Assembly (NCBI GenBank): GCA_021202335.1
Contig: JAJQDE010000041.1
Coordinates: forward strand, 1 to 64,000
Length of the DNA: 64,000 nt
Reading direction: 5' to 3'
From: Lachnospiraceae bacterium
Lineage (GTDB): Bacteria; Bacillota; Clostridia; Lachnospirales; Lachnospiraceae
Positions 5,778 through 35,033 of the stretch are shown piece after piece. The notes beneath the pieces are model-generated. The model ran no database searches and was not told where the DNA came from. It saw only the letters and a list, made by a program, of their open reading frames with translations. Within the stretch, counting starts at the first letter, position 1. The number at the start of each line of letters is the position of its first letter. Both the position numbers and the translations under genes were made by a program.

Positions 5778-6137
5778 TCACAGCTCCTCCAGTTTGAAGC
5801 TCAAGCTCCATATAGGCGTTCCCTGACCATACAGTTTTATTGCCGTGCTTACTCCCGATACCCTCATGCTTGCCTCTGTTTCGACGCCTTTTTTGTCAAA
5901 TGTCACGTCCGCAACGGGTGAAAGCACGGCAAGCAGCGTATTTTTCAGCGTTTCCGTTATCGCACTGTAAGAAACGCTTATTGTTGCGACATCGCAGCGG
6001 ATAATTTCCACCGTCGTTTCGCCCGTTTCGCTCCCGTACTCGTTCACCACATCCTCATACTGAACCGAAATACTGCCAAGCTCGCCTTTTTTTGGAATAG
6101 GAAACGCCACGCCTCCGATAACCAGTGAATTAAGCAT
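5778..6137 (-). CDS. Small phage tail protein (DUF6711-like position)
   Basis: A 119-residue protein beginning MLNSLVIGGVAFPIPKKGEL, with alternating beta pattern. It overlaps the end of the tape-measure gene by 8 bp and lies one base before the hub gene. Proteins of this size in this slot are distal-tail or tail-tube-adaptor parts. The DUF6711 assignment is from memory and needs a profile search. Confidence 0.6.
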   Translation of the reverse strand: MLNSLVIGGVAFPIPKKGELGSISVQYEDVVNEYGSETGETTVEIIRCDVATISVSYSAITETLKNTLLAVLSPVADVTFDKKGVETEASMRVSGVSTAIKLYGQGTPIWSLSFKLEEL

Positions 6138-9100
6138 TCGCCATACCTCCCGACCGTCTGCTGATACGCTCCTTCGCGCTCACGATAATCTCGTCAATGC
6201 TTTCATTGCCTATGCTGACAGGAATAATGATTTCGCCCTCCTGTTTTTCCTCTTTCTGCATCCCTGTCAGAATATTAAGTATTTTCTCCAAAACGCCGTT
6301 ATCCCCGCCCTGCATCGTAATATTTCCGCTCCCCTGTGTACCGCTGCCATTGCTCAAATATGTGTTTTCCATGTACACATTCGTCTGCATCTGCAATGCC
6401 GAAAGCTTGCTGTCAAGCATACTGCTAAGGCGTTCGTAAAACTCCTCAAGCGGTAGTATCGCCTCCGCTCCCTCCTCGCCGCCTACCATAAGGCTTGAGC
6501 CGCTCATCCCGAACACTGTCGGGTTTGTCATGATACCGCCCGACTTATACCATTGGACGCTGAATGAAGGCACTGACGGCGGATTCAAACTGAACGATCC
6601 GCTTATAGAAAAATGCGGCATTTTCAGTTTTGGCAATGACCAACTGAAATTAAAATAGCTCTTAATCTTCTCTATGGCGTTGCTTACGGTTGTTTTTACG
6701 CTGTCAAAAATACTGCTGAATTTTTCTTTAATCTTAGTCAGTATGTTTGTGACCGTACTAAATGCACCGTTCAAGGCTGTTGAGATTACTGACTTAACGC
6801 TATTGACCGCCGTGCTAACCGTTGTCTTAACGCCGTTCCATACCGTACTGAATGTGCTTTTTATGCTGTTCAATACGGTTGATACCACAGACTTAATCGC
6901 ATCAAAAGCGGTTGATACCACAGACTTAATCGCATCAAGCGCAGTCGAAACAGCGCTTTTGATTGTTTCCCACGCGGCACTGATTGTCGTTTTGATTGTT
7001 TCCATTACCGTTGAAACGATTGAGCTTATAGCCTCCCAAACAGTCGTAAAGGTATTTTTTATTCCTTCAAGAACATGGCTTAAAAAGGCTGTAATACTGT
7101 TCCATACGGAGCTTATGGTGTCTTTGACCGCGTTAAGCGCATCAGATACCACGGATTTGATAGCTTCCCATGCAGTCATGATTTCTTCCTGGCAATTCTG
7201 CCAAATGAATTGAAAGGGCAGTGTAATCAGCGTAAATGCGGCTTTGACCAATTCAACAATGAACATTATCGCAACCTGAACCACATTTTTGATTGTTTCC
7301 CATACTGAAGAAATAGTGTCCGCCATTGAGCTGAAGATATTAGCAGCCGCGTCCCTTATCGCGCTGAATTTCTCTGACACCGCTTCTCCCGCACTGGACA
7401 ACGCCCCCGTGATTGTTTCCTTTATCGCGCCGAATTTTTCCGTGACATTTTCCCAAAGACCGGACAGCTTTTCCTTGACCGTATCCCAATTTTGATAAAG
7501 GGCAACGCCTATCGCTATAAGCCCCGCTATAAGCGCCACGGTACGGATTATCGGACACAGGTTCATTACCGTATTTAATGCCGTCTGCGCTACCGTCATT
7601 CCGCCCGTTACGGCTGTCGCTGTCGTTTCCGCTGCCGCTGCCGCCGTCGTTGCCGTGGATTTTGCTGTTATCTTTGCTATTACCGTCGATGCGCCCGAGG
7701 CAAATTTCTGTCCCGCCGTAACCGTACTCGATATGCCCTGCGCAACTTTTCCAAAGCCTATCGACAGCGGGCCGATAGCTGCAACCACAAGCCCGACCTT
7801 GATGATCGTCTGCTGCTGCCCCTCATCTAAATTTGTGAACCACTGCGTCAGCTCTTGTATTTTTGCCGTCACATCCTCAATTATCGGCGCGGCTGCTGTC
7901 TGCGCCGTATCTGCGAGAGTTGACAGTGCAAGTTTCGCATTATTCATTGCTACTGTCGCGTTGTCTAGTGGATCAAGTGTCGCATTATATGTATCTTCAA
8001 CAACTGTGCCGTATGTAGACATAGAAGCCGACATATCGTCAATATCGATCCTGCCCTCTCTAATTGCAGTCGTCATCTCCGCCGCGCCTTTTGTTCAAAA
8101 TAGCTCTGTTGCAATCTGCAAAGCTTCGGTTTCCGTGCTTGCGTCTTTAATACTGCCGATTGTTTCCTCTAATGCCTCATCCAAGCTTTTTCCATCGCTT
8201 GTTGCATTATTGAGGGCTTTTTTTAACCCTGCAAGCGCAGTCGTAGCGTCGACGCCGTTCGCGTCAAATTGCGCCATGAGGTTAATTGACCGTTCAAGTG
8301 AAAGCCCCATTTCCTTAAACGTGGAATTGTTATCAAGCACATAACTTTCAAGCGTATCAACAGAAATGCCTGTTTCCTGTGCTTTTGATGTCAAAAGCCC
8401 CAACAGATTTGCAGTTTCTGACGTGTCAATGTTCCACGCTTCCATGATTTTATCAACTTGGTCAACAGATTGCGTGACCTGCGAGCCGTTAATCTCCGCA
8501 AATTGTATAAACAATGCCGATAAATCTTCAAGCTCCGTACCCGTGGATTGAAACCTCGTGTTCACTTCACCGATAGCTTCCCCTACCGTCGCCATTTCCA
8601 CGGGCATCTGCGTAAATACGCTGTTCGCTGATTCTTCCAACGCTTCCAGCGCATCTCCTGTCGCCCCTGTTTTTGTGACTATCGTGTCATAACCCTCGTC
8701 CATCTCCTTAAAGGCTGCTATGGACGCTGCGCCTATCGCCGCTATCCCCGCCGACACAACCGAAGCCTTTTTTCCGAAACTCTCCATCTTCTGCCCTGCG
8801 GTGTCGCAAGCAGACGCAAACTCGTTGAGCTTGTGGTTTTTCAGCTCGTTATTTACGTCCTCAAGCTCCTTCTCCATGTTCGCAAGGTCAGCCTTTGCGT
8901 TGTTTGCGGCTGTTGCCTGCTTTGAGAGCGCGGTTTCCGTCTTACCGATTGCTGACTCGCTCTCTTTAAGCTCCTGCCCCAGCTTGTCCAACTCATCCTT
9001 TAATTCCTTTGTTTCATCGGAATCCTCGCCCGTCGCCTTTGCCGAAGCTTCATACGCCTTTGTCGCCGCCTCGATTTTTGATTTAAGCTCCTCCTGCTTT

Positions 9101-9360
9101 GATTTCTGCTCCGTGAGCTTTTTGGTGAGCTGCTCCTGCTTATCGGAGGTCTGCGACACAACATTTCTCTGCACTTCTATCTTCGCCGTCAGATTTTCCG
9201 CCTTTGCGCGCAAAGCGTCCGCTGCCGTTCCGAAAGCGTTCGCCTGTGCCTGCGCGAGCTTAAACTCGCTTGACAGCTCCTTCATCTGCGTTGCCGCTGA
9301 TTTCATCTGTGACTGGTAATCTGACGAATTGGCAGTTATCTGTACGCTCGTATATGCCAT
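6130..9360 (-). pseudogene. Phage tape measure protein interrupted by an in-frame TGA
   Basis: The reading frame of 1077 codons is intact except for one TGA at 8095-8097. Upstream 421 residues start MAYTSVQITANSSDYQSQ with a long coiled coil (residues 15-165), typical of tape measures. Downstream, TKGAAEMTTAIREGRIDIDDM continues the conserved region without loss or gain of bases. Homologous tape measures have Gly at the stop position (ELFGTKGA-like), so GGA to TGA is the simplest change. The C-terminal half has a hydrophobic segment and 11-residue repeats of the type IKSVVSTAFDA. The ORF track shows two ORFs (421 and 648 aa). Without readthrough or reinitiation the phage would lack a full tape measure. 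Confidence 0.85.
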
Positions 9361-12380: not shown

Positions 12381-13646
12381 CTAGCCCTCTGCCTCTGTGG
12401 TGTCTGTGGTGTCTGTAGTGTCTGTAGTGCTTATAGTCACTGTAATCTCGCCCTTGACTACCGCGCCCTCGTCCACAGCCTGCACGTCAAAGCGGTCGCG
12501 CACCTTAAGCCCCGTCATATCCTTTTCCCACAGCCCCGCTGCCTTGTCGTTCATGTCGATAGTAAGCACGTTACGGTCAAAAAGCGTAATTGCTTCCTTT
12601 AAATCACCGCAGTATACGGGATATTTGTAGCCCGTCACTGTTTCTCCGTCAAGAACTTCCTCGGACGCCAACGTCTTATTCGACAGCCTGATAACAGGGT
12701 ACTGACCGAAAAGCAGCTTGCCCTTGGTCGGCTGAAGCGGATCTCTCTGCAGAATGTAATTCCCGTCGCTATCCTTGAGCTTGTCAAGATAGTTGAAACC
12801 GCTCTGATTCGTAATGACCATTGACGACTCAGCAATCGCAGGATCGAGTGTCACATTAAATATGTCCTTTAAATCGTCAAGGTCTGATATTTCAACCTCG
12901 CTGCCCTCTGTCATGCTGTCAAGCGTACTGATAATGACCGCGTTTCTCGTCGCCTTTGTCTTTTGGGCAATCCACTTGTTGATGTATGCCATAATATTCT
13001 GCGCCGTATCCTCCAAAAGCTCCGCCGTCATCTTTAAAATGCCGCCCTTTTTCTTGATTGTGTACGTAATCTGCTTGAATTTCGGCTCGCTCATCTCCGG
13101 GAACTCCGCCGCCTCATCCACATTGTCGAAAGGCGTTGATTCAGCGTCCACCTCAATATTCCTTGTGCCTGTCTTTGTCGCCACGCCCTCAATATTTACA
13201 TACTGTTCAAGGTTATCCTCGCTGCGGCGCAGCTCTATAATGTCTGTCCGTATATCCTCGGGAACAGTCACGCCAAGCCCCGATTCGCCGTCGTCGTCCG
13301 CCGTCGCGTCGGATGTTATCGCGTCCTTGTACACCTTCACATCGCGCTCGTCCGGCTCCCTGTGGAAAAATCCTGCCTTGATGATATTTACAAAGGCTTT
13401 TGTAAGGCTCTTTTTGTCCTTTACCGGATTATCAAGGTTCTTTGCTTCTCCTGACAAAGCCTTATTTTCCATCTCATCGCGCAGGTCGTCCTCAATGTCG
13501 CAAAGCAAGTCGAATTTCTCCTGCATTCCCTTCAGCGCTTCCTTTGCCTCCCTTGCCTCGTCAAGCTTTCCCTCCTGTGCAAGCCGCTTAACCTCATCCT
13601 TTTTGCTGTTAATCTCCTTCAACAGCTTTCTCATTTCTTCATTCAT
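12381..13646 (-). CDS. Major capsid protein, HK97 family
   Basis: A 421-residue protein with an N-terminal coiled-coil scaffold-like delta domain (about residues 1-60, MNEEMRKLLKEINSKKDEV) and the HK97-fold capsid body, with motifs such as SSMVITNQSGFNYLDKLKD and GKLLFGQYPVIRLS. The delta domain is probably removed by the ClpP-type protease encoded upstream. The C-terminus ends in a repeated Thr-Asp tract (TDTTDTTDTTEAEG) encoded by near-perfect 9-bp DNA repeats. The stop is TAG. Confidence 0.93.
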   Translation of the reverse strand: MNEEMRKLLKEINSKKDEVKRLAQEGKLDEAREAKEALKGMQEKFDLLCDIEDDLRDEMENKALSGEAKNLDNPVKDKKSLTKAFVNIIKAGFFHREPDERDVKVYKDAITSDATADDDGESGLGVTVPEDIRTDIIELRRSEDNLEQYVNIEGVATKTGTRNIEVDAESTPFDNVDEAAEFPEMSEPKFKQITYTIKKKGGILKMTAELLEDTAQNIMAYINKWIAQKTKATRNAVIISTLDSMTEGSEVEISDLDDLKDIFNVTLDPAIAESSMVITNQSGFNYLDKLKDSDGNYILQRDPLQPTKGKLLFGQYPVIRLSNKTLASEEVLDGETVTGYKYPVYCGDLKEAITLFDRNVLTIDMNDKAAGLWEKDMTGLKVRDRFDVQAVDEGAVVKGEITVTISTTDTTDTTDTTEAEG

Positions 13647-13661
13647 TTTTTTGTTCTCCTT

Positions 13662-14474
13662 TCAGATGCCATATAAATCTAAATCCTTTAAAATATCCTG
13701 CTTCTTTGCCTCGGCTTTCGCCGCTTCCCTTCTTTCAAGCTCCGCGATCACCTCGTCCACGATGCCCTTTGCGCCCATCTCGTCCCCCTGCTCCGGCACA
13801 TTCACGTATCTGCTGAAATAATCCGAAGCGCAAGCCGCGACCGCTGCCTTTGCGTCAACGATAACGTCAAAATACTGCGCAAGCTCTGTACCGTTAAACC
13901 ACGTTTCCGCCGCCATCATCGCCTTAATGCTGTCCCGCGTGATGCCTTCCTTTACGTGTTCCTCGTATACGTCAAGTATTGATTCCTCGCACAGGTCAAG
14001 CTGTTCAATAACTTTTTTAAAGTCATCCGCATTGCCCCACGCGATACAGAGCGGCTTGTGTATCATTGCCTGCGCCCCTGTCGCAAAGTGAAGCTCATCA
14101 CAGGCAAACATAATCACCAACGCGATTGACGCCGCCATGCCGTCCACGTACCCGACCTTGTGACCGCCAAACCGCTTGAGCTGATTGTAAATCGCAAGCC
14201 CCGCGAACACATCTCCGCCACCGCTGTTGAAGTAAATATCAATATCCTCGTACCCTTCCAACAGTCCTAAGAAGTCGGCAATATCCTGCGGACATTTATC
14301 CTCTATTGCACATGCGTCCCACGTAGAAGAAACTATATCGCCATAAAAATACAGCGAGCATTTCCCCTGTTCCTCGTCAGCTTCAAAATCCAAATAGCCG
14401 ACCTTCTGCTTCCTGCCCGTGCGCTTGTCCTTTTTGGTAAAATCAAAACGCTTTTTCTCACCCATATTATTCAC
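13662..14474 (-). CDS. ClpP-related prohead protease
   Basis: A 270-residue head maturation protease. It has the ClpP-type N-terminal strand (LYFYGDIVS), the oxyanion segment NSGGGDVFAGLAI, the nucleophile Ser116 in GMAASIALV and the catalytic His139 in AMIHKP. It probably trims the capsid delta domain during head assembly. It overlaps the portal gene by 8 bp. The C-terminal 50 residues are charged and helical. Confidence 0.92.
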   Translation of the reverse strand: MNNMGEKKRFDFTKKDKRTGRKQKVGYLDFEADEEQGKCSLYFYGDIVSSTWDACAIEDKCPQDIADFLGLLEGYEDIDIYFNSGGGDVFAGLAIYNQLKRFGGHKVGYVDGMAASIALVIMFACDELHFATGAQAMIHKPLCIAWGNADDFKKVIEQLDLCEESILDVYEEHVKEGITRDSIKAMMAAETWFNGTELAQYFDVIVDAKAAVAACASDYFSRYVNVPEQGDEMGAKGIVDEVIAELERREAAKAEAKKQDILKDLDLYGI

Positions 14475-15738
14475 CTCCCTTCGTATATGCTGCTCCCGCC
14501 TGTGTCAGCGGAATTATATTTCCATTTGCAAGTAGGACATCCCCGCCCTCTGCGTCAGGGAGATCCAGCTTCCTTCTTGCCTCGTTTGATGTCATGACGG
14601 AACCCGCCACGCCCTCTTTCAGATACTCCATCTGTGTCTTTGAATCCGTCCTAAAGAGTACCTTTTCATTGTACTTGTAGTAATATCCCTGTTCCTGCTC
14701 GCTTTCAGTCAATATCTTGCAGTTTATTTCTTCCTCATACTGTTTTATGACAAACAGCTCCGTATCAACGTAAAACGATAGCTGCTGAAGCTCGCTGTTT
14801 GCGTATGATGATTTCTCGTAATCGTTGATTTGGTTCGGCTTCACCCCGAACGCCGCCGCAATCTGCAAAGCCGTGTACTTTTTCAGCTCAAAGAACTGCG
14901 AATCAGACAGCTTAATATCAAGCGGCGTAAGCTTCATACCTAGAGGAACAGGAATAATCCGCCCCGTGTTTTTTACACCGCTGCCGAACGCCTCGAACGA
15001 TTTTATCAGCTTTTCCCTTGATTCTTCATTCAGCTCTCCCGTATACTCCAACGTAGCCTTTGCCGTCAATCCGCTTTTATAAAGGCTGTTCATGTACTCC
15101 TGTGAAGCCGCCGCTCCACCTATCGTGTCCCGCAATATCTGCTGCACCGGCATACCCGTAATGCCGTTGAAGCTAAATGAAGTCTTAAAGTGCATGACCT
15201 CGCTTGTGTCAAATACATACAGCTGCCCCGACATCGGATCCGCGTACACATACCACAGCCGTCCTTTCCCGGCAAAAATCCCCGCGTCGTCAATGTATAT
15301 TGATACGCAATTAGACTGCATAACCCAAAGGTCTAACACCCTGATTTCTCCGCCGTATTTTTTGCGGTCAAACCTCCTGCGTATGTAGACATACGCATTC
15401 CCGTAATGATTTCTGTTCATCTCGACCGCGTTCCAAAAGACCGTCGGTGTCATGAATGGGTTTGGACGTTTCGTCAAAAGCCTTGACGTTTCGGTCTGTT
15501 CCGCCTCAATAATCCCGTCCTTTGTCTTTTGATAATATTTGATAGGCATTTTAGCAAGCGTTTCCGACATCATCTTTAGACACGTAAAATATGTAACCTC
15601 CGATTCCGCCTTATTTTTCTTTCCAAGCCCTATGCTTTCAAGAAACGACGGCGAATTTATCGACACAACGCCGCTTGCCTCGCTCCTGCCCTTCCACCAA
15701 TCCCTCACTCTTTCCGCAAATCTCTTAAATGGGTTCAC
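14467..15738 (-). CDS. Portal protein, HK97 family
   Basis: A 423-residue portal. Supporting motifs are TYFTCLKMMSETLAKMPIKYYQ, HYGNAYVYIRR, and the late segment FGVKPNQINDYEKSSYANSE, all typical of HK97-type portals. It forms the dodecameric ring at the head vertex and docks the terminase. It is 2 bp downstream of the large terminase gene. Confidence 0.93.
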   Translation of the reverse strand: MNPFKRFAERVRDWWKGRSEASGVVSINSPSFLESIGLGKKNKAESEVTYFTCLKMMSETLAKMPIKYYQKTKDGIIEAEQTETSRLLTKRPNPFMTPTVFWNAVEMNRNHYGNAYVYIRRRFDRKKYGGEIRVLDLWVMQSNCVSIYIDDAGIFAGKGRLWYVYADPMSGQLYVFDTSEVMHFKTSFSFNGITGMPVQQILRDTIGGAAASQEYMNSLYKSGLTAKATLEYTGELNEESREKLIKSFEAFGSGVKNTGRIIPVPLGMKLTPLDIKLSDSQFFELKKYTALQIAAAFGVKPNQINDYEKSSYANSELQQLSFYVDTELFVIKQYEEEINCKILTESEQEQGYYYKYNEKVLFRTDSKTQMEYLKEGVAGSVMTSNEARRKLDLPDAEGGDVLLANGNIIPLTQAGAAYTKGGE

Positions 15739-15740
15739 TC

Positions 15741-17537
15741 TTATTCACCTGCCAATCCGTATTTTTCCATAAGTGCCAGCCATTCGCTCACAGCCTCGTT
15801 TGCGTCCGGTCTGTACTCCTCCTTCATTGCCGCTTTCCATGCGTCGATTATCGCGTCAATAGGATCTATTCTGTCCTCTCCCGCGCTCTTATCTATCTTG
15901 ATTTCGCCGAAGCTGTTTGATACAGTTTTTGCGTTCGCTATCGACCATGTCAGCAGCTCATCCGCAGGAACGACCTCTTTTTTGCCGCTGCCCGTTTCTA
16001 TCCCCTCAATCTCCACGTTGCCCGCCTTAATTTCCAACTGAAAATCCACCTTGGCATCGTTCAGCTCCCTTGCCGTCTGCGTAATCGACACCGAATCAAC
16101 TCCCAACGCCTCAATATCCGAAAGGAACGCGGACGCATTGTGCGGATCGTAACACACAAGCTGTGGCTTCAATTCGTATTGGCTTATCAGTTCGCGCAAG
16201 TAGCTGATAATATACTTGTAATCCGTCTTTACGCCGCCCAGTGTTTCCGTCACCGTGACAAGCCCCTTTTTTATCCATAAATCATACGGCACCTTATCCG
16301 TTTTGATATGCTCGTCAACTCTCCCCGCTGGTATGAAGGAGTGCGTTTTAATAAAATATTTTTTTACACCGCCCTCAATATGGGGAATGATGATTGCTAT
16401 TGACGTCAAATCTCCGCCCGATGAAAGGTCTATGCCGACATAGCACTTTGCCCCGTGGAAGTTTTCGAGCGTCTTTAACACGGCACACCGCTTCCACTCC
16501 CTTATATCCTTGATGTATTGCGAATTTGACCACTGCGTCCACATATTGAGCTGCTTAACTAAAAAATCCCTCAAATCCTCGCCTCCCATATCGCGGGCAG
16601 TGTTCGCCACAGGGACGAGATTGTCCCACGCGTCACTATCAAATTCCAATATCGGATTTGCCTTAATCCAATTATCCCTGTTATGCCAGTCGTCACCTTC
16701 GTCAAGCTGCGCGATGTACACAAACTGGCTGTCATTCTCAAACACTCCCTCCAACAAACTGCAGCAATACTCATACAACTTGTAGCACGGCGATTTTAAG
16801 TCAAACCCCGCCGTCGTGATAACGGATATGAGAGCGGATTTCAACTTTTTAATACCACCCTCCAACAGCTTATACATTTGGTTAGTCTTGTGCGCGTGGT
16901 ATTCATCCACAATCCCTAAATACGTCCTATGTCCGTCAAGTGATTTCGTATCGCCCGACAATGCCTTTATCTCCGAATGTGTAATCAGACAATCTATCGT
17001 GTGATTATGCGCGTGTACCTTGAAGCACTCCGCCAACTCATTATCGGAGCTGATGAATTTATTAATTTCCTCCCACACAATATTAGCCTGATCCTGCTTA
17101 GTTGCCGTGCAATAAATCTTCCCGTACATATACCCGTCGAAATTGCCGTAATAGCAAGCCAAAATACCGTCTATAAAGGATTTTCCATTTTGCCGCCCTA
17201 GCTGTACATACGATGTTCGGAAACGTCTATAACCCTTTTCTTTTATCCGCCATCCGTTCAGTGAGCCTAATATAAAGCATTGAAACGGAAATAGCGTGAC
17301 GTGTTCCTGCTCCTGTCCTTCGGCTATCGTCAGCTCCTCCCCAAAATTTATTATTTCCTCCGATTTCTCAATGTCGAAATAATAAATATATTCGGGATCT
17401 TGCGACTTTTCGATGTCATCAAGATGTCTTTGGCACGCCAGTCTGACATATTTCCCCGCAATTATTTCACCGCTTGCGACGCCGCAAGCATATTCCGTGC
17501 AGCGGTCGGTTACTGCCCCGCATTGCTTTGCCGCCAT
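15741..17537 (-). CDS. Terminase large subunit
   Basis: A 598-residue DNA-packaging motor. The ATPase domain has a Walker A-like LGRQNGKS near residues 113-120 and Walker B YLGIVDEYH with Asp211-Glu212. The C-terminal RNase H-like nuclease begins with YVGIDLSSGGDLTSIA and has further acidic residues in CYDPHNASAF and late DPIDAIIDAWKAA. The length and motifs fit the Terminase_1 family used by HK97-like phages. It directly follows the small subunit gene with no gap. Confidence 0.95.
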   Translation of the reverse strand: MAAKQCGAVTDRCTEYACGVASGEIIAGKYVRLACQRHLDDIEKSQDPEYIYYFDIEKSEEIINFGEELTIAEGQEQEHVTLFPFQCFILGSLNGWRIKEKGYRRFRTSYVQLGRQNGKSFIDGILACYYGNFDGYMYGKIYCTATKQDQANIVWEEINKFISSDNELAECFKVHAHNHTIDCLITHSEIKALSGDTKSLDGHRTYLGIVDEYHAHKTNQMYKLLEGGIKKLKSALISVITTAGFDLKSPCYKLYEYCCSLLEGVFENDSQFVYIAQLDEGDDWHNRDNWIKANPILEFDSDAWDNLVPVANTARDMGGEDLRDFLVKQLNMWTQWSNSQYIKDIREWKRCAVLKTLENFHGAKCYVGIDLSSGGDLTSIAIIIPHIEGGVKKYFIKTHSFIPAGRVDEHIKTDKVPYDLWIKKGLVTVTETLGGVKTDYKYIISYLRELISQYELKPQLVCYDPHNASAFLSDIEALGVDSVSITQTARELNDAKVDFQLEIKAGNVEIEGIETGSGKKEVVPADELLTWSIANAKTVSNSFGEIKIDKSAGEDRIDPIDAIIDAWKAAMKEEYRPDANEAVSEWLALMEKYGLAGE

Positions 17538-18080
17538 TTATCCGCCCGCGTATTTTTTGAATTTGTTTTCCGGCTTTGTGTCATTTTTCTTCGGCACGAC
17601 CAATCTGCACCTGCTACTGACCGTCATTCCAAAGTCTGCCGCGCCCTGCCTGCACTGTTTCAAGCACCGATCCTGAATGACCATAAGCTTCTCTCGTTCT
17701 TCATTGACTATTTTTTTCATACCGACCTGCGTCTGCTCTGTTTTTCCCGTGTTTGGATCTTTTATGTTCTTATAAGCCGGAATTTCATACATTAACGGCA
17801 TCTCCTGAATTTCCTTTGTCACCTCTATGTACTGCTCTTGCGATACTATAAGCCTCGCCAATGCGTCACAGTCCACGTTTGCCATCAGCCCGATTTCCAG
17901 CAAATCTTTTGACAATTTTCTAAAGTTTTTTTTCTGTCCGGGCGTCAAAAAAGCAGGCGGCTTGACCTTATCGCACGGTGCGGAAACCTCCGCATTTTTC
18001 CTCTCCTCAATTTCCGCTTTTGTCAGGTGTTTCCTGCCTTTCATGATTACCAAATCTGTCGGCTGCCTCTGTCCTGCCAT
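17538..18080 (-). CDS. Terminase small subunit, P27 family
   Basis: A 180-residue DNA-recognition subunit. The N-terminal segment has the P27-type pattern GRKHLTKAEIEERK, then KPPAFLTPGQKKNFRKL, and a late PKKNDTKPENKFKKYAGG. It overlaps the 3' end of the HNH gene by 74 bp in another frame and abuts the large subunit. Confidence 0.88.
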   Translation of the reverse strand: MAGQRQPTDLVIMKGRKHLTKAEIEERKNAEVSAPCDKVKPPAFLTPGQKKNFRKLSKDLLEIGLMANVDCDALARLIVSQEQYIEVTKEIQEMPLMYEIPAYKNIKDPNTGKTEQTQVGMKKIVNEEREKLMVIQDRCLKQCRQGAADFGMTVSSRCRLVVPKKNDTKPENKFKKYAGG

Positions 18081-23286: not shown

Positions 23287-23757
23287 TCAGAGCAAAGGAC
23301 CTGCCGACTGCATATGGCGGACGTGTTCCTCCCACCACACACTCATATCACCTCCAAAAAGCGTTTCCGCCAGCCTTGCACGCGGCGCCAGTTCCAAATA
23401 CTGTCTTATGACCTCTATCGCAGACTGCGCATCGTGGCATACCGCCACGCACTGCCTCGCCGCATCCATGTCCTGAAGGAATTCCATCTGCTCACGCGTC
23501 GCCGTGTTCCTCCCGGACTTCATCTCAATGTACAGCCCATGGTAGCAGCCGCGCGCATACGGCAGATGCAGGTCCTACACTCCCCGCTTCACGCCCATGC
23601 GCTTAAGCTTCACCGCCTCGCGGGCATTCCTCGCGCCGCCGTTCGGGATATGGTGCAGCCATCTCAGCTCGGGATAATGCACCGACGCGTTTGCCGCCCA
23701 ATCCATGACGCGCATCTGTTCCGTGTCCTCGTTCCGTTTCATATTTTCAAGCTTCAT
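23287..23757 (-). pseudogene. VRR-NUC nuclease interrupted by an in-frame TAG
   Basis: One frame of 157 codons has a TAG at 23575-23577 and is otherwise whole. The upstream part holds HHIPNGGARN and the downstream part LHLPYARGCYHGLYIEMK, the core of the VRR-NUC fold, with the Asp and Glu-x-Lys catalytic residues downstream of the stop. The stop falls in GV*DLHLP, where family members usually have Pro or Ser; TCG to TAG needs one change. Start is MKLENMKRN, with GGAGG upstream, overlapping the RNase H-like gene. VRR-NUC proteins are common in phage replication modules. The truncated product would lack the active site. Confidence 0.85.
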
Positions 23758-24244
23758 TCCGTTTGCCTCCGTCCTCATCCGTTTCCAAAACCATCTGCTC
23801 CCACTCCTCTTCTTTGAGCTTTCCGATTTTATACCTCATATACTCCCGCCAGCCGTTCGCGGAAGGCGCACGGGCAAATTCCAGCCTGTGTCCCTTCATC
23901 GCGCGCAGCAGCTCCTCCCATTCCTGCCTGTTGGCTATCTCCTCACCGTTATGGCTTTTCCAGCCGTTCTGCCGCCATTGCCGCGCCCTGCCCTGCCGCA
24001 CTGCTGCCGATATATACGCATTGTCAAGGTATACCGTGACAATGCAGGGTCTGATAAGCTTTGACAGCGCCGCCGCCATTGCTGCCAGCGCGGCTTTATT
24101 CGCCGTTGCCTCCGCCGTTCCGTAAACTTCCCTCGTGACCGTATCGCCGCCCCTTGTTATGAACTCGACGACGGCATAGTATATTCTGTATCTCTCTTTT
24201 TTGTCGTTCCCATCCGTGTCTATGTAAATGCTTACCCTGTCCAT
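23747..24244 (-). CDS. RNase H-like protein
   Basis: A 165-residue protein with the RNase HI-type layout: first strand VSIYIDTDG, helix NKAALAAMAAALSKL, strand IVTVYLDNAYISAAV, and late NRQEWEELLRAM. Asp residues corresponding to the first and third carboxylates are present (YIDTD, YLDN). The second-position Glu in the helix is Ala here, so nuclease activity is doubtful or uses another residue. It lies between the HUH gene and the VRR-NUC gene, which suggests a role in phage replication. Confidence 0.7.
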   Translation of the reverse strand: MDRVSIYIDTDGNDKKERYRIYYAVVEFITRGGDTVTREVYGTAEATANKAALAAMAAALSKLIRPCIVTVYLDNAYISAAVRQGRARQWRQNGWKSHNGEEIANRQEWEELLRAMKGHRLEFARAPSANGWREYMRYKIGKLKEEEWEQMVLETDEDGGKRNEA

Positions 24245-24262
24245 GCCAAAACCTCCTTACGG

Positions 24263-24384
24263 ATGCCTCTCCCGTTCGACTCCGACGGGCTTTGGGGTAC
24301 TTATCCACAATTTTCTCCCGGATATTCCCCTTTTGAATGCCCCTCCCATTCGACTCCGTCGAACCTTGGGGCACTTATCCACAA
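24263..24384. repeat. Two 48-bp direct repeats each with a DnaA-box-like site: candidate replication origin
   Basis: Copies at 24263-24310 and 24337-24384 agree at about 41 of 48 positions. Each ends in ACTTATCCACAA, which contains TTATCCACA, a match to the DnaA box TTATNCACA. Copy A has an inverted repeat CCCGT-ACGGG; copy B has TTCGAC-TCC-GTCGAA. Copy B overlaps the stop codon of the HUH replication gene. Origin function is inference. Confidence 0.65.
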
Positions 24385-25307
24385 TCCCCGTGACCGCAGT
24401 CTGTCCGACTTATGTCCGGTCCTTCCTTGCGGTGCATATCAAGCCTTATGCTCCACATGCCGAGCACTTCATTGTAGGCATACCTGCACCTGTCGAGCGC
24501 ATAGCCCTTGTAACGCGCCTCAAACAACCGCCTTGTGTCCTCGCAGTCGGGCGGGCAGCTCACCACCTTTTCAACGTCCCTGCGGCTGTATGCGTTGTCG
24601 CGCGTCCGCTCATGGGGCTTGATGAGATTATGGGACGACCGCCACGCCTTTTTTCCTTTCGGCAATCCCCCGCCTATAAGGTCATCCTCGTCAATGCCGC
24701 CGCCCTCCACATCCGCAAGCGAAAGCTGTCCTGCCGTCGCGCCCGCCCGTTCCTTCTCTGACTTTAGCGTCTGCTTTGTTATGTATTTTACGAGCCCCTC
24801 AATGCCCTCATTGTCAAAACGCAGATGCTCAACCCTGACATACCCCAAAGCCTCCGCCGACCTGCCCTTGCCCTTCGTCCACATCGCTTCCAATGTGTCC
24901 CTGTCAATGCCGCCGCTGATGATGAGATGGTGGTGCGGTCTGCCGCCGTTCTCAAAGCCCTCCTCCACGCATATCCATTTCATGGGCTCAAGCCCCATCT
25001 TCTCCCTGAGCCTTGCCATGCGCTTTAGCATATTGGTGACAAGCTTCACAGCCTCCTCACGGCTTGCGGGCAGGTGCTCATCATCGTAGGTTAAATCCAT
25101 TCTGTAATCACAGTCCGTAAAGTTCGACTTGATGAGCTGGTGGAAGTACCTCCTGCTCCTCCTGTTATTCAGTTCCATCTGCGCAGGAGTGCTCTCATGC
25201 CTGCGCTTCCCCCTGCTCCGGGGCACGTGCCTGTAGCAATATATGTCCACCTCGCGGTAATGCGTCCTTGTGCCTCTCCCGCAGTGAGTTATCTTCTGCC
25301 TTCCCAT
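24375..25307 (-). CDS. HUH-type rolling-circle replication protein
   Basis: A 310-residue protein with the metal-binding HUH motif RPHHHLII (His125 and His127), preceded by strand YRMDLTYDDEHL and segment WICVEEGFENGG. The candidate nicking Tyr is Tyr175 in LVKYITKQT. These match rolling-circle replication-associated proteins related to Rep proteins of small phages and plasmids. An N-terminal basic Cys/His/Arg region and a C-terminal 100-residue tail of unknown role are present. It is flanked by a long hairpin upstream and DnaA-box repeats downstream. Confidence 0.82.
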   Translation of the reverse strand: MGRQKITHCGRGTRTHYREVDIYCYRHVPRSRGKRRHESTPAQMELNNRRSRRYFHQLIKSNFTDCDYRMDLTYDDEHLPASREEAVKLVTNMLKRMARLREKMGLEPMKWICVEEGFENGGRPHHHLIISGGIDRDTLEAMWTKGKGRSAEALGYVRVEHLRFDNEGIEGLVKYITKQTLKSEKERAGATAGQLSLADVEGGGIDEDDLIGGGLPKGKKAWRSSHNLIKPHERTRDNAYSRRDVEKVVSCPPDCEDTRRLFEARYKGYALDRCRYAYNEVLGMWSIRLDMHRKEGPDISRTDCGHGDCG

Positions 25308-25360
25308 TCCCCATGCTTTCCTTTACGGTTTGTTTTTGTCCGAAATGTTAATACTTATAT

Positions 25361-25406
25361 ACAAGCCCCGAAGTCACAATATTTGTGACTTTGATATGAG
25401 GCTTGT
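25361..25406. promoter_or_regulatory. Long hairpin upstream of the HUH replication gene
   Basis: Outer arms ACAAGCC and GGCTTGT enclose a perfect inner stem AAGTCACAA-TAT-TTGTGACTT. It lies in the 109-bp gap between a small ORF and the start of the HUH gene. There is no U-run on the leftward side, so a simple terminator is less likely. A cruciform replication origin or operator is possible. Confidence 0.5.
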
Positions 25407-25416
25407 GCGAGCAGCT

Positions 25417-27221: not shown

Positions 27222-27545
27222 GTGGACGATTTAACCAAAGACCAAAAATTTTTGATTGTTTCTTTATATAAAATATTTTTATCTCGTCAATCTTCTCTTG
27301 ACGCTCATTCTGCAAACTACTTTGCGGATTCAGATTCTTTAATTCCTTTGCTTGAACTGGATTTTTCCTCTGAATATCTCGCGGATTTGTGTCTTGCTTT
27401 GCTTGAACGAGGTTATATTGATGGTTACAAAAGTGAATGCTCTGTCGATGAATTTAAAATTTCCGACAAGACCATCATATTTATGCAGAACCGATTCAAG
27501 CGTGGGTTGAAAGATGTTCTTGTATTTTTATCTAACTTCATTTAA
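27222..27545 (+). CDS. Isolated plus-strand protein of the early region, winged-helix-like
   Basis: A 107-residue protein starting at GTG with AGGAGGTG six to nine bases upstream: (V)DDLTKDQKFLIVSLYKIFLSR. The layout DLCLALLERGYIDGYKSE, then FKISDKTIIFMQNRFKRG, recalls a winged-helix fold of the YjcQ type. The ORF track merges it with 262 codons antisense to other genes; the promoter and ribosome site show where it truly begins. It runs against the early operon and its TAA shares the bases TTAA with the stop of the converging gene. Confidence 0.72.
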   Translation: MDDLTKDQKFLIVSLYKIFLSRQSSLDAHSANYFADSDSLIPLLELDFSSEYLADLCLALLERGYIDGYKSECSVDEFKISDKTIIFMQNRFKRGLKDVLVFLSNFI

Positions 27546-27886
27546 CCCTCTGAGGGTGTTTCACTTTCTGAAGCATCCTCCTTTTCCCAATATTTACTGT
27601 GTGGAATATTAGGAAATTTCTGCTCGAAGTTTTTTGCAAATTTCACATCCCTTGTGTGCCTGCACCCACCTCCATTTATGTAACAATCAGTTTTCCTGCA
27701 CCCCTCTTTTTGTCCATTACATATGTAAAATACTATGTTTTCCTTGCTCATCTGATTGCGTGCTTTTTCAGCTTCTCTTGACTCTTCCTCGTAACTGATA
27801 TTCAGCTCCATATCGCCATCCTTAAAATTCCTCTCGACCAATCGCCGAAATGCTTCGGCGGCTGATTTATTTTTTAACCTGCTCAT
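27542..27886 (-). CDS. Phage early protein with Cys-rich segment
   Basis: A 114-residue protein starting MSRLKNKSAAEAFRRLVERN, with AAGGAGG upstream. Its C-terminal half has a Cys/His cluster (FYICNGQKEGCRKTDCYINGGGCRHTRD) that could bind zinc. The last residues are acidic. It overlaps the upstream small gene by 20 bp and converges with the 27222-27545 gene at the overlapping stop codons. Function unknown. Confidence 0.65.
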   Translation of the reverse strand: MSRLKNKSAAEAFRRLVERNFKDGDMELNISYEEESREAEKARNQMSKENIVFYICNGQKEGCRKTDCYINGGGCRHTRDVKFAKNFEQKFPNIPHSKYWEKEDASESETPSEG

Positions 27887-28031
27887 TGCTGCGCCTCCTC
27901 CTTTTCGCCGCCTCCTCGTTTTCTTCCCGTATTCTTTCAGCAAGCCCATAAAGCCTGCCTTTCTGAAAATCAGACAGCTTAGGTATTACTTCAATGATTT
28001 CCTGCAATGTTTCTTTTTCTTTTTCTGACAT
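27867..28031 (-). CDS. Small helical phage protein
   Basis: A 54-residue protein, MSEKEKETLQEIIEVIPKLSDFQKGRLYGLAER, a pattern common in small Firmicutes phage proteins encoded next to the lysogeny switch. The start follows AAAGGAAGTGAG. Function unknown. Confidence 0.65.
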   Translation of the reverse strand: MSEKEKETLQEIIEVIPKLSDFQKGRLYGLAERIREENEEAAKRRRRSNEQVKK

Positions 28032-28441: not shown

Positions 28442-28672
28442 GTGATACAATATTCCAAGCAAGCAATTAAATTTCTAAAAAAACAGGATATGCCAACAAA
28501 AAAACGAATTGTGACAGCTATCAACAATCTTCCGTCCGGCGATGTGCGGAAATTGCCGGGAACTGACGGCTACCGCTTGAGAGTTGGTGATTTCCGTGTT
28601 ATATTCAATGCAAACGGAAACATCCTTTGGATTGAGAAAATAGATAACAGAGGACAGGTTTATAAAAGATAG
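28442..28672 (+). CDS. RelE/ParE-family toxin
   Basis: A 76-residue protein starting at GTG with GGGAGG upstream. IQYSKQAIKFLKKQD at the start and LRVGDFRVIFNANGNILWIEKIDNRGQVYKR at the end match small RelE-type mRNA interferases, including the late Arg/Lys-rich end. The toxin gene comes before the antitoxin gene, the reverse of classic relBE. It is the first gene of the lysogenic operon. Confidence 0.85.
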   Translation: MIQYSKQAIKFLKKQDMPTKKRIVTAINNLPSGDVRKLPGTDGYRLRVGDFRVIFNANGNILWIEKIDNRGQVYKR

Positions 28673-28681
28673 GAGGCAATT

Positions 28682-28912
28682 ATGACAGCTGTTAAAGAAA
28701 GGATTTATGGCGCAGTATCCGTAATGAGTGACACAGACGCGGAAACTGTTTGGGGATTAATTATGGATAACTTTCCCAAGCGTTCATGGGAGGACATTCC
28801 TGAAGCTATGCCAGATGAATGGGATGTGAAAATGCTTGACAGCATTAAAAACGATCCGGATTGCCGTACATTCATATCCGCCGAGGACGCAATGAAAGAG
28901 CTTGGACTATAA
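28682..28912 (+). CDS. Antitoxin partner of the RelE-like toxin
   Basis: A 76-residue acidic protein, nine bases after the toxin gene. N-terminal helices (VMSDTDAETVWGLIMDNF) and the C-terminal end ISAEDAMKELGL fit antitoxins that accompany RelE toxins in Clostridia. Identification is mainly by size, charge and pairing. Confidence 0.75.
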   Translation: MTAVKERIYGAVSVMSDTDAETVWGLIMDNFPKRSWEDIPEAMPDEWDVKMLDSIKNDPDCRTFISAEDAMKELGL

Positions 28913-29002
28913 GACCGTAAAAGCCATTTATAAAGGGGCGTTGATTGTGTTATGTATGAAATGCGGCGGCATGAATGGATTTTAGGAAGGGAGGCATACG
29001 AC

Positions 29003-29383
29003 ATGGGCGCAAGAATAAAGGAGCTGCGCAAGAGTCTGGGCTTGACGCAGCAGGAATTTGCCGACAGGCTAAAAATAAAACGCGGCACCGTTGCACAATG
29101 GGAAATAGAACGCAACGAACCGATAGATGCGGTTGTGAACCTCATCTGCCGCGAGTTCCACGTAAACGAGGCGTGGCTGCGTGGCGGAACAGGGGAAATG
29201 TTCATAGAGCAGACAAGGGATGAAGAAATTGCTGCGTTTATCGGAAAGGTGCAGGAAAACCCTGACGATACTTTCAAGAAGCAGCTTATTTCAGTATTAG
29301 CGCATCTGACGGAAGATCAATGGGTGTTCCTGGAACAGAAAGCCAAGGAATTAGTTGGTGAGAATGAAAAGGCAAACCAATAG
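29003..29383 (+). CDS. XRE-family phage repressor (CI-like)
   Basis: A 126-residue protein with an N-terminal HTH: MGARIKELRKSLGLTQQEFADRLKIKRGTVAQWE. The next segment (FHVNEAWLRGGTGEMF) is typical of small Clostridial phage repressors. The C-terminus is helical and has no RecA-cleavable peptidase domain. Start is at MGARIK after GGGAGG; the ORF track begins 17 codons earlier. It is cotranscribed with the toxin-antitoxin pair from 28386-28414 and is the likely keeper of lysogeny. Confidence 0.82.
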   Translation: MGARIKELRKSLGLTQQEFADRLKIKRGTVAQWEIERNEPIDAVVNLICREFHVNEAWLRGGTGEMFIEQTRDEEIAAFIGKVQENPDDTFKKQLISVLAHLTEDQWVFLEQKAKELVGENEKANQ

Positions 29384-32411: not shown

Positions 32412-33524
32412 ATGAAGATGCCGAACGGATACGGGGGCATTGTGAAGCTCCCGGGGAAGCGCAGGAAGCCGTGGGCTGTGCGCGTTTCATATGTTGAGAG
32501 CGGGGCGGACGGTACGCCTAAGCGCAAACGCAAATACATTGCGTACTTTGCTAAGCAAGAAAGCGCCCTCGCCTACCTCGCCGAATACAACAACGGCGCA
32601 GTTGTCCCCGAACACCAAAAATACGCGCAGACACCCACCTTCGCCGAACTATACGAGCAATGGAAAAAATACAAGAACAGCCTGAAAAACAAGCCCGGCG
32701 ATGCCGCATGGAAAAATTACGGCATTGCCTTCAATTTCTATGCTCCCCTGCACCAAAAGAAAGTCGTTTCCATAAAGGCGCGCGACCTGCAGGAATGCAT
32801 AACGGCGCAGAGCGGCAAGTCACGCTCCACCGTCGGCAATATGCGGGCAATAATTCGCGGCATGTGGGGCTATGCCGTAGCAAATGAAATAGCCGAGAAC
32901 GACATAACGCAGCACCTCGTCTTTGAGTTCACCCAATCAGGCGTGCCGATGCACACGCGCTTTACCGATGCTGAGGTTGCGCAGCTATGGGACGCTCTGT
33001 GGACCATAAATAACGTTGACATAATCCTCATCTACATCTACACGGGACTGCGCCCCACCGAGTTGCTTGAAATAAAGTCCTCTGACGTGCATCTTCCCGA
33101 GCGTTACATGACAGGAGGCATAAAAACCGAGGCAGGCAGGAACAGAATAGTTCCAATACATGAAGCAATCGTCCCCCTCATCGAGTACCGCCTCGCGCAG
33201 AACCGCCCTTACCTCATCACTAATAAATACGGCAACCGGTACACACGGGCAGTCTACACTGCCAGCAACTGGACGACAGTAATGCAGCGCATGAAAATGA
33301 GTCCCGCGCCGCACGACTGCCGTTATACATTCGCCGCCCTCGCCGATAAAGCCGGCATGAACGAAACATGCCGCAAGATAATCATGGGGCATTCGCTGGG
33401 TAACGCTAAGGGCAGCGCCTTCAAGACCGGGCAGACCGACGACATCACGCAGGGCGTGTACACCGAAAAGACAATCCCTGAGCTTGTGGCGGAGATGAAT
33501 AAAATTCCCGTTATCACCACCTGA
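32412..33524 (+). CDS. int: Phage integrase, tyrosine recombinase
   Basis: A 370-residue recombinase that inserts and excises the phage at the gdhA end. It has an N-terminal AP2-like arm-binding domain (about 1-65), a SAM-like core-binding domain (about 75-165) and the catalytic domain with Arg214 (YTGLRPTEL), Lys238 (GGIKTEAGRNR), His301 and Arg304 (HDCRYTF), His327 (GHSLG) and Tyr350 (GVYTEK). The spacing from His327 to Tyr350 is longer than in XerC/D by about ten residues. AAAGGA precedes the ATG. It ends 154 bp before attR, with arm-type repeats in between. Confidence 0.95.
   Translation: MKMPNGYGGIVKLPGKRRKPWAVRVSYVESGADGTPKRKRKYIAYFAKQESALAYLAEYNNGAVVPEHQKYAQTPTFAELYEQWKKYKNSLKNKPGDAAWKNYGIAFNFYAPLHQKKVVSIKARDLQECITAQSGKSRSTVGNMRAIIRGMWGYAVANEIAENDITQHLVFEFTQSGVPMHTRFTDAEVAQLWDALWTINNVDIILIYIYTGLRPTELLEIKSSDVHLPERYMTGGIKTEAGRNRIVPIHEAIVPLIEYRLAQNRPYLITNKYGNRYTRAVYTASNWTTVMQRMKMSPAPHDCRYTFAALADKAGMNETCRKIIMGHSLGNAKGSAFKTGQTDDITQGVYTEKTIPELVAEMNKIPVITT

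Positions 33525-33677: not shown

Positions 33678-35033
<1,356 letters not shown>

Follow-up and report, generated by a model that had tools for sequence, protein, structure and literature searches.

A conserved hairpin and CTTG...TATTAAC block in front of an HUH rep gene is a candidate rolling-circle origin of tailed temperate phages of Clostridia and Bacilli

We describe a strong candidate for the replication origin of a prophage in a Lachnospiraceae bacterium, consisting of a hairpin and a CTTG...TATTAAC block between the hairpin and rep (about 25341-25405). Together, the hairpin and the adjoining block very probably form the double-strand origin from which the neighbouring HUH protein would initiate rolling-circle replication. 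This reading draws on the sequence, namely on the Rep family and its catalytic residues, the conservation of the hairpin and motif, their position and uniqueness, and the absence of any other recognisable initiator. The window, i.e., the whole 64,000-nt stretch of DNA analyzed, belongs to a host genome of 2.74 Mb and contains the entire prophage (~33.6 kb, HK97-type), bounded by identical 31-bp att repeats. The HK97-type packaging module named in the preliminary description was recovered, with TerL, the portal, a ClpP-like head protease, and the major head protein. The early operon of the prophage runs leftward. Its main features are as follows:

69-99, no strand: att repeat at the distal prophage end, 31 bp, identical to 33678-33708
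12381-18080, minus strand: HK97-type module (major head protein, ClpP-like protease, portal, TerL, TerS)
23747-24244, minus strand: RNase H-fold gene directly downstream of rep (PF00075, 9.4e-12; phrog_531)
24375-25307, minus strand: rep, predicted HUH single-tyrosine rolling-circle initiator of 310 aa (PF23343/phrog_3584)
24783-24785, minus strand: codon of Tyr175, the predicted nucleophile, invariant in alignments of 27 and 25 sequences
24927-24935, minus strand: HHH codons 125-127, the HUH metal-binding motif; both outer histidines (H125, H127) invariant over 25 aligned sequences
25341-25369, minus strand: conserved block for nicking and recognition, GGGGCTTG^TATATAAGTATTAACATTTCGG, with the nick predicted at 25362/25361, 27.3 bits leave-one-out
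25362-25405, minus strand: outer stem CAAGCC...GGCTTG around the core hairpin, including the nick-motif CTTG, from folding
25371-25391, minus strand: core hairpin, AAGTCACAA-3 nt-TTGTGACTT; relatives have a hairpin of other sequence in the same position
28952-29383: cI-like repressor
32412-33524, plus strand: prophage integrase (PF00589, 2.9e-10; phrog_1)
33678-33708, no strand: att repeat inside the 3' end of gdhA, 31 bp, identical to 69-99

The preliminary description had called the gene an HUH replication gene and singled out Tyr175, and both points hold. Rep scored 35.0 bits against the PF23343 profile (REP_ORF2-G2P; curated cut-off, 27.8) and is thus a member of that family, and it matched phrog_3584 ("replication initiation protein") at 1.1e-62. 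The 25-row alignment shows no variation at H125, H127, or Y175; with 27 rows, the same is true of H127 and Y175, and H125 is almost invariant. The catalytic tyrosine stands in a YxxK context (Y175-ITK) and is the only one: residue 179 is Gln, and relatives have no Tyr in that column. Rep also lacks a Glu four residues ahead of the Tyr (residue 171 is Gly), and a Pfam search gave no match to PF01446 (Rep_1). The fold predicted by AlphaFold2 (pLDDT 82.9) had siphovirus "replication associated" proteins as its top viral matches (E 6.6e-23); its top PDB matches were weak and mostly HUH Rep domains, and a phmmer search against PDB sequences returned no usable match. The closest relatives of Rep come from Lachnospiraceae metagenome assemblies. 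Protein patterns built from this single Rep retrieved no relatives from viral_contigs.

An HUH Rep had been presented as atypical for a tailed phage, which is contradicted by PHROG 3584, where such Reps are found, and by isolated siphophages: HUH Reps are carried by siphophages of Faecalibacterium, Butyrivibrio, Terrisporobacter, and Latilactobacillus, three of which were sequenced from induced lysates. Phages recovered from induced lysates carry both Rep and the origin site. HUH Reps in siphoviruses are already catalogued as such (PHROG 3584, PF23343). Elsewhere in the window, a 135-aa ORF (27542-27949, minus strand) matches residues 31-94 of phrog_3584 (6e-7); it resembles the N-terminal part of Rep, lacks the HUH and Tyr motifs, and is perhaps a piece of Rep or a regulator in competition with it.

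The long hairpin at 25361-25406, already pointed out in the preliminary description, is well supported: folded as DNA it reaches −13.1 kcal/mol (z −7.2), none of 200 shuffles was equally good, and the opposite strand folds significantly too. The outer CAAG/CTTG stem is not a family-wide feature, being found only in the window and one branch; in the window, cruciform extrusion of this stem, which includes the CTTG, could expose the nick site. We consider it highly likely that the hairpin and block constitute a double-strand origin with a predicted minus-strand nick between 25362 and 25361. This cleavage point is placed by analogy with phiX174 and pC194, and it is uncertain and possibly off by a few bases because Rep has one catalytic tyrosine, unlike the phiX174 gene A protein.

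Relatives show dissimilar hairpins upstream of rep, followed by a near-identical block (GGGCTTGTATATAAGTATTAACTTTAGA). Of 57 non-redundant relatives, 44 have in front of rep a hairpin of varying sequence and then GGGCTTG^TAATAGGTATTAAC. The family consensus reads CGGGCTTG, 7-8 nt, and TATTAAC, and a sub-branch (Arawn and others) has CTTGATAAAAGTATTAAC, which is even closer to phiX174 and pC194-type nick sequences. We scored the loci with a two-block matrix, leaving out each scored locus plus its near relatives. The best leave-one-out match fell within 600 nt upstream of rep in 48 of the 57 non-redundant loci and, upon refinement, exceeded 9 bits in 44 of these; in the window, the origin block scored 27.3 bits, against 0.9 for the next best site and 0.2 for the reverse strand. 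As the motif was first spotted by eye and the 33 starting sites were drawn from upstream of rep, this test was not blind, and the genome-wide scan and the Paraclostridium element described below are better controls. The 38 nt before the CTTG had a mean folding z of −1.8, compared with −0.2 in 357 control windows (p 6e-10), with the hairpin no better than shuffles in about a third of the sites. Relative to the predicted start of rep, nearly all blocks lie between −1 and −423, with a median of −52; two loci have an apparent small reading frame between block and rep, and one phage has the block inside the predicted rep frame (+58). Roughly one quarter of the Rep loci, mostly distant ones, have no good site, and several distant loci show nothing clear. 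The relatives with the putative origin comprise several families plus Latilactobacillus phages, and include elements of both Clostridia and Bacilli. FP_Toutatis (L031) keeps a hairpin and CTTGTATAT / GGGGCTTGTATAT about 212 nt before the rep start and has lost TATTAAC; this site is possibly a diverged origin, useful for asking which part of the origin matters.

A sequence-only block model, uninformed of hairpin or rep, was run over 144 related genomes, and 16 of its 17 best matches adjoin Rep genes found independently by protein search. Eleven of these 16 Rep-adjacent loci were in the model; G158:C21, G072:1716081, G015, G018:C7, and G018:C268 were not, and G015 and G018:C7 are close kin of a model member. 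The remaining match, the only strong site without Rep (G023), was considered as a possible satellite and rejected, as it is coding sequence without a hairpin; two weaker Rep-less sites considered likewise proved on inspection to have no such element. Across the 2.74-Mb genome of the window, the block has a single significant copy, at 25341-25369 on the minus strand (E 5.5e-5; next, E 1.15). A rolling-circle origin is expected once per replicon, linked to its Rep, and as a hairpin beside a conserved nick sequence near rep; our scans found this copy number and linkage, and the arrangement in front of rep is of this kind.

Outside the model, the same Rep family occurs in a 33.9-kb circular replicon of Paraclostridium sordellii (L116, NZ_CP124276.1) that also carries HK97-type genes and ParM. 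Although catalogued as a plasmid, it is a tailed phage-plasmid, with ParM as its partition gene. Its best block match (E 0.0036) follows a hairpin and is 45 nt upstream of rep, and the annotation of the replicon contains no recognisable initiator apart from the PF23343-type Rep.

The order of elements in the window recalls phiX174, whose initiator is also an HUH protein and whose record annotates the origin at the base right after CTTG in CAACTTGATATTAATAAC. A cleavage sequence of the CTTG^ATATTAA type is present in the window: the phiX174 origin core CTTG^ATATTAATAAC and the window CTTG^TATATAAGTATTAAC have their elements in a similar order, although the two are not identical. The phiX174 gene A protein, however, employs two tyrosines (YxxxY), whereas Rep has Gln at residue 179; according to its record, the phiX174 origin lies within gene A, whereas the origin in the window has an upstream hairpin and lies outside rep; and the window phage is a 33-kb tailed dsDNA phage with a one-tyrosine Rep. 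Because six microviruses from the same Pfam family gave no convincing site when scanned for the block, phiX174 is the only link to microviruses. P2-like myophages are tailed, temperate, and long known to replicate by an HUH nickase; P2 itself has its origin within gene A, with a sequence unlike that of the window, and the P2-like gpA belongs to a different Rep family. Myoviridae Reps are listed in PMC6668415.

Both pC194 and pUB110 contain CTTGATA, the conserved nick site of Rep_1 (PMC10378824), and these plasmids share with the window a CTTG^ATA nick site and Gram-positive hosts. The position also agrees, as the dso is frequently upstream of rep in rolling-circle plasmids according to PMC5703833. 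The difference is that the window has phage genes, not those of a plasmid, and that its Rep is of PF23343, with neither PF01446 nor the Glu four residues before the Tyr that mark the pC194-type Rep_1. The siphovirus Reps of PHROG 3584/PF23343 (FP_Toutatis, Arawn, TPDSL_ph2, and Latilactobacillus TMW phages) belong to the same family and have the same genomic role in temperate tailed phages, and most of these siphoviruses carry the same origin, unannotated in their records; the window Rep is ~28-33% identical to theirs and has an additional loop at 191-217. A further parallel is Rep-SNJ2, encoded by a temperate virus beside a conserved hairpin, the origin being experimentally shown (PMC13107129), but that virus is an archaeal pleolipovirus, its Rep is outside the HUH superfamily, and its hairpin lies downstream of rep.

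Alternatively, the hairpin and block could regulate rep as an RNA leader or an operator (an attenuator, or a repressor or promoter site) and not be an origin, which we think quite unlikely. The element does belong to the 5' leader of rep and is oriented like the gene, and plasmid dso complexes can silence rep as well (PMC5703833). Nevertheless, it stands 140-420 nt before rep in several relatives, including the two with apparent small ORFs in between, and inside the predicted rep frame in another; no T run follows the hairpin; and the block matches known nick sites and is common to Clostridia and Bacilli elements having the same Rep type. The range of block positions and the spread of the block with Rep across Clostridia and Bacilli favor a DNA site bound by Rep.

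With the hairpin and block as a double-strand origin, the phage probably copies itself as phiX174 and small plasmids do. We infer induction and excision of the prophage, after which Rep would recognise the hairpin and the TATTAAC block upstream of its own gene, and Tyr175 would nick the minus (rep-sense) strand at CTTG^TATATAAG (25362/25361). Rep would remain attached to the 5' end, the free 3' end would prime leading-strand synthesis by host polymerase and helicase, and the displaced strand would be converted to double-stranded form by host functions. If the phage cycle makes use of this origin, the resulting circles or multimers would supply the HK97-type packaging module. Family searches of the prophage genes recognised, besides Rep, no initiator, helicase, helicase loader, primase, SSB, or recombinase; several small prophage genes had no family assignment.

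The preliminary description had also assigned a part in the origin to host DnaA, on account of 48-bp repeats at the other end of rep, each with TTATCCACA and an inverted repeat:

24255-24311, minus strand: second repeat copy, with a DnaA-type box at 24301-24309, within the RNase H gene leader
24329-24385, minus strand: repeat copy nearest rep, with a DnaA-type box at 24375-24383 that forms the last rep codons, TGT GGA TAA

Two copies do exist, with TTATCCACA in each, but they measure 57 nt and are 82% identical, and one of them has a clean inverted repeat (z −3.4), that of the other being weak (z −1.1). On this account, the repeats at 24255-24385 would be all or part of the origin, where DnaA opens the DNA or loads helicase, or might alternatively be a single-strand origin. 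We regard it as quite improbable. The two boxes are perfect and 74 nt apart, and the last 13 nt of the repeat, box included, are its best-kept part, identical between copies with the remainder diverged; yet one of these boxes is simply the terminus of rep, and the pair can be the outcome of one small duplication, so that the boxes do not represent two independent events. One copy folds better than shuffles, and TTATCCACA is over-represented across the genome (53 occurrences vs 14 for a reversed control), but the repeat block has no match in 194 related genomes, rep adjoins the next gene without any such region between them in the closest relatives, and perfect boxes occur near rep in just 5 of 57 loci (6 sites vs 2 for the reversed control). 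The conserved cluster of boxes that would characterize a DnaA-dependent origin is thus lacking. Furthermore, in the passages of PMC5714925 and PMC5703833 on second-strand synthesis, host primase or RNA polymerase makes the start, and DnaA is not assigned any role. A DnaA role for the repeats is possible but unsupported; they are lineage-specific and unnecessary for the rolling-circle model. Of the origin originally proposed, the hairpin, conserved in relatives, belongs to the candidate, and the repeats do not. A combined reading, in which a phiX174-like origin is joined by a lineage-specific pair of DnaA-box hairpins recruiting host DnaA (e.g., for the second-strand start), seems very unlikely to us; if true, it would make this a rolling-circle tailed phage with a lagging strand dependent on the host initiator. 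Separately, G000:C63:48072-48213 holds three TTATCCACA in 142 bp and is a possible chromosomal oriC segment.

Two genes of the prophage are interrupted. The tape-measure gene is split by an in-frame TGA (8095-8097) into ORFs 8095-9360 and 6130-8076, which share one frame, reflecting either prophage decay or an assembly error. A VRR-NUC-like gene is split by an in-frame TAG (23575-23577), and its read-through product matches PF08774 at E 0.003, below the cut-off. Stop-codon recoding was rejected as the cause, as TAG, TGA, and TAA all terminate normal genes here. Because of these in-frame stops, the window copy of the prophage may be defective, and its cycle is perhaps not completed. Near the repressor, a small ParE-like toxin gene is followed by a 76-aa ORF (28442-28912, plus strand), and the two are likely a toxin-antitoxin pair. 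A further, very unlikely reading is that Rep is a relic or serves another role (strand transfer, integration, or mobilisation) while the phage replicates from elsewhere via host machinery: the broken tape-measure and VRR-NUC genes and a nearby PcfJ-like gene, of a family that occurs on conjugative plasmids too, would suit it, but Rep is intact with every catalytic residue present, family searches of the prophage turned up no second initiator and no helicase loader, primase, or SSB, and the Paraclostridium phage-plasmid is maintained as a circle with a PF23343-type Rep as its sole recognisable initiator.

Our search of the open-access literature, covering this origin, these phages, and HUH siphophages, found no description of the shared origin, which is not proof of absence. 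That origin, a nick block like those of phiX174 and pC194, preceded by a hairpin and used by temperate tailed phages of both Clostridia and Bacilli, appears to be undescribed, judging from the literature searched. Many gut and rumen siphophages lack helicase, primase, and polymerase genes, and what is said of their replication has largely come from similarity-based annotation. An origin of ~65 bp common to Rep phages of Clostridia and Bacilli would turn the label "replication initiation protein" into something testable with one protein, one oligonucleotide, and one predicted nick. Its sequence would also be a handle for finding such phages and phage-plasmids and for predicting their replication mode, and the origin could serve small vectors for hosts that have few.
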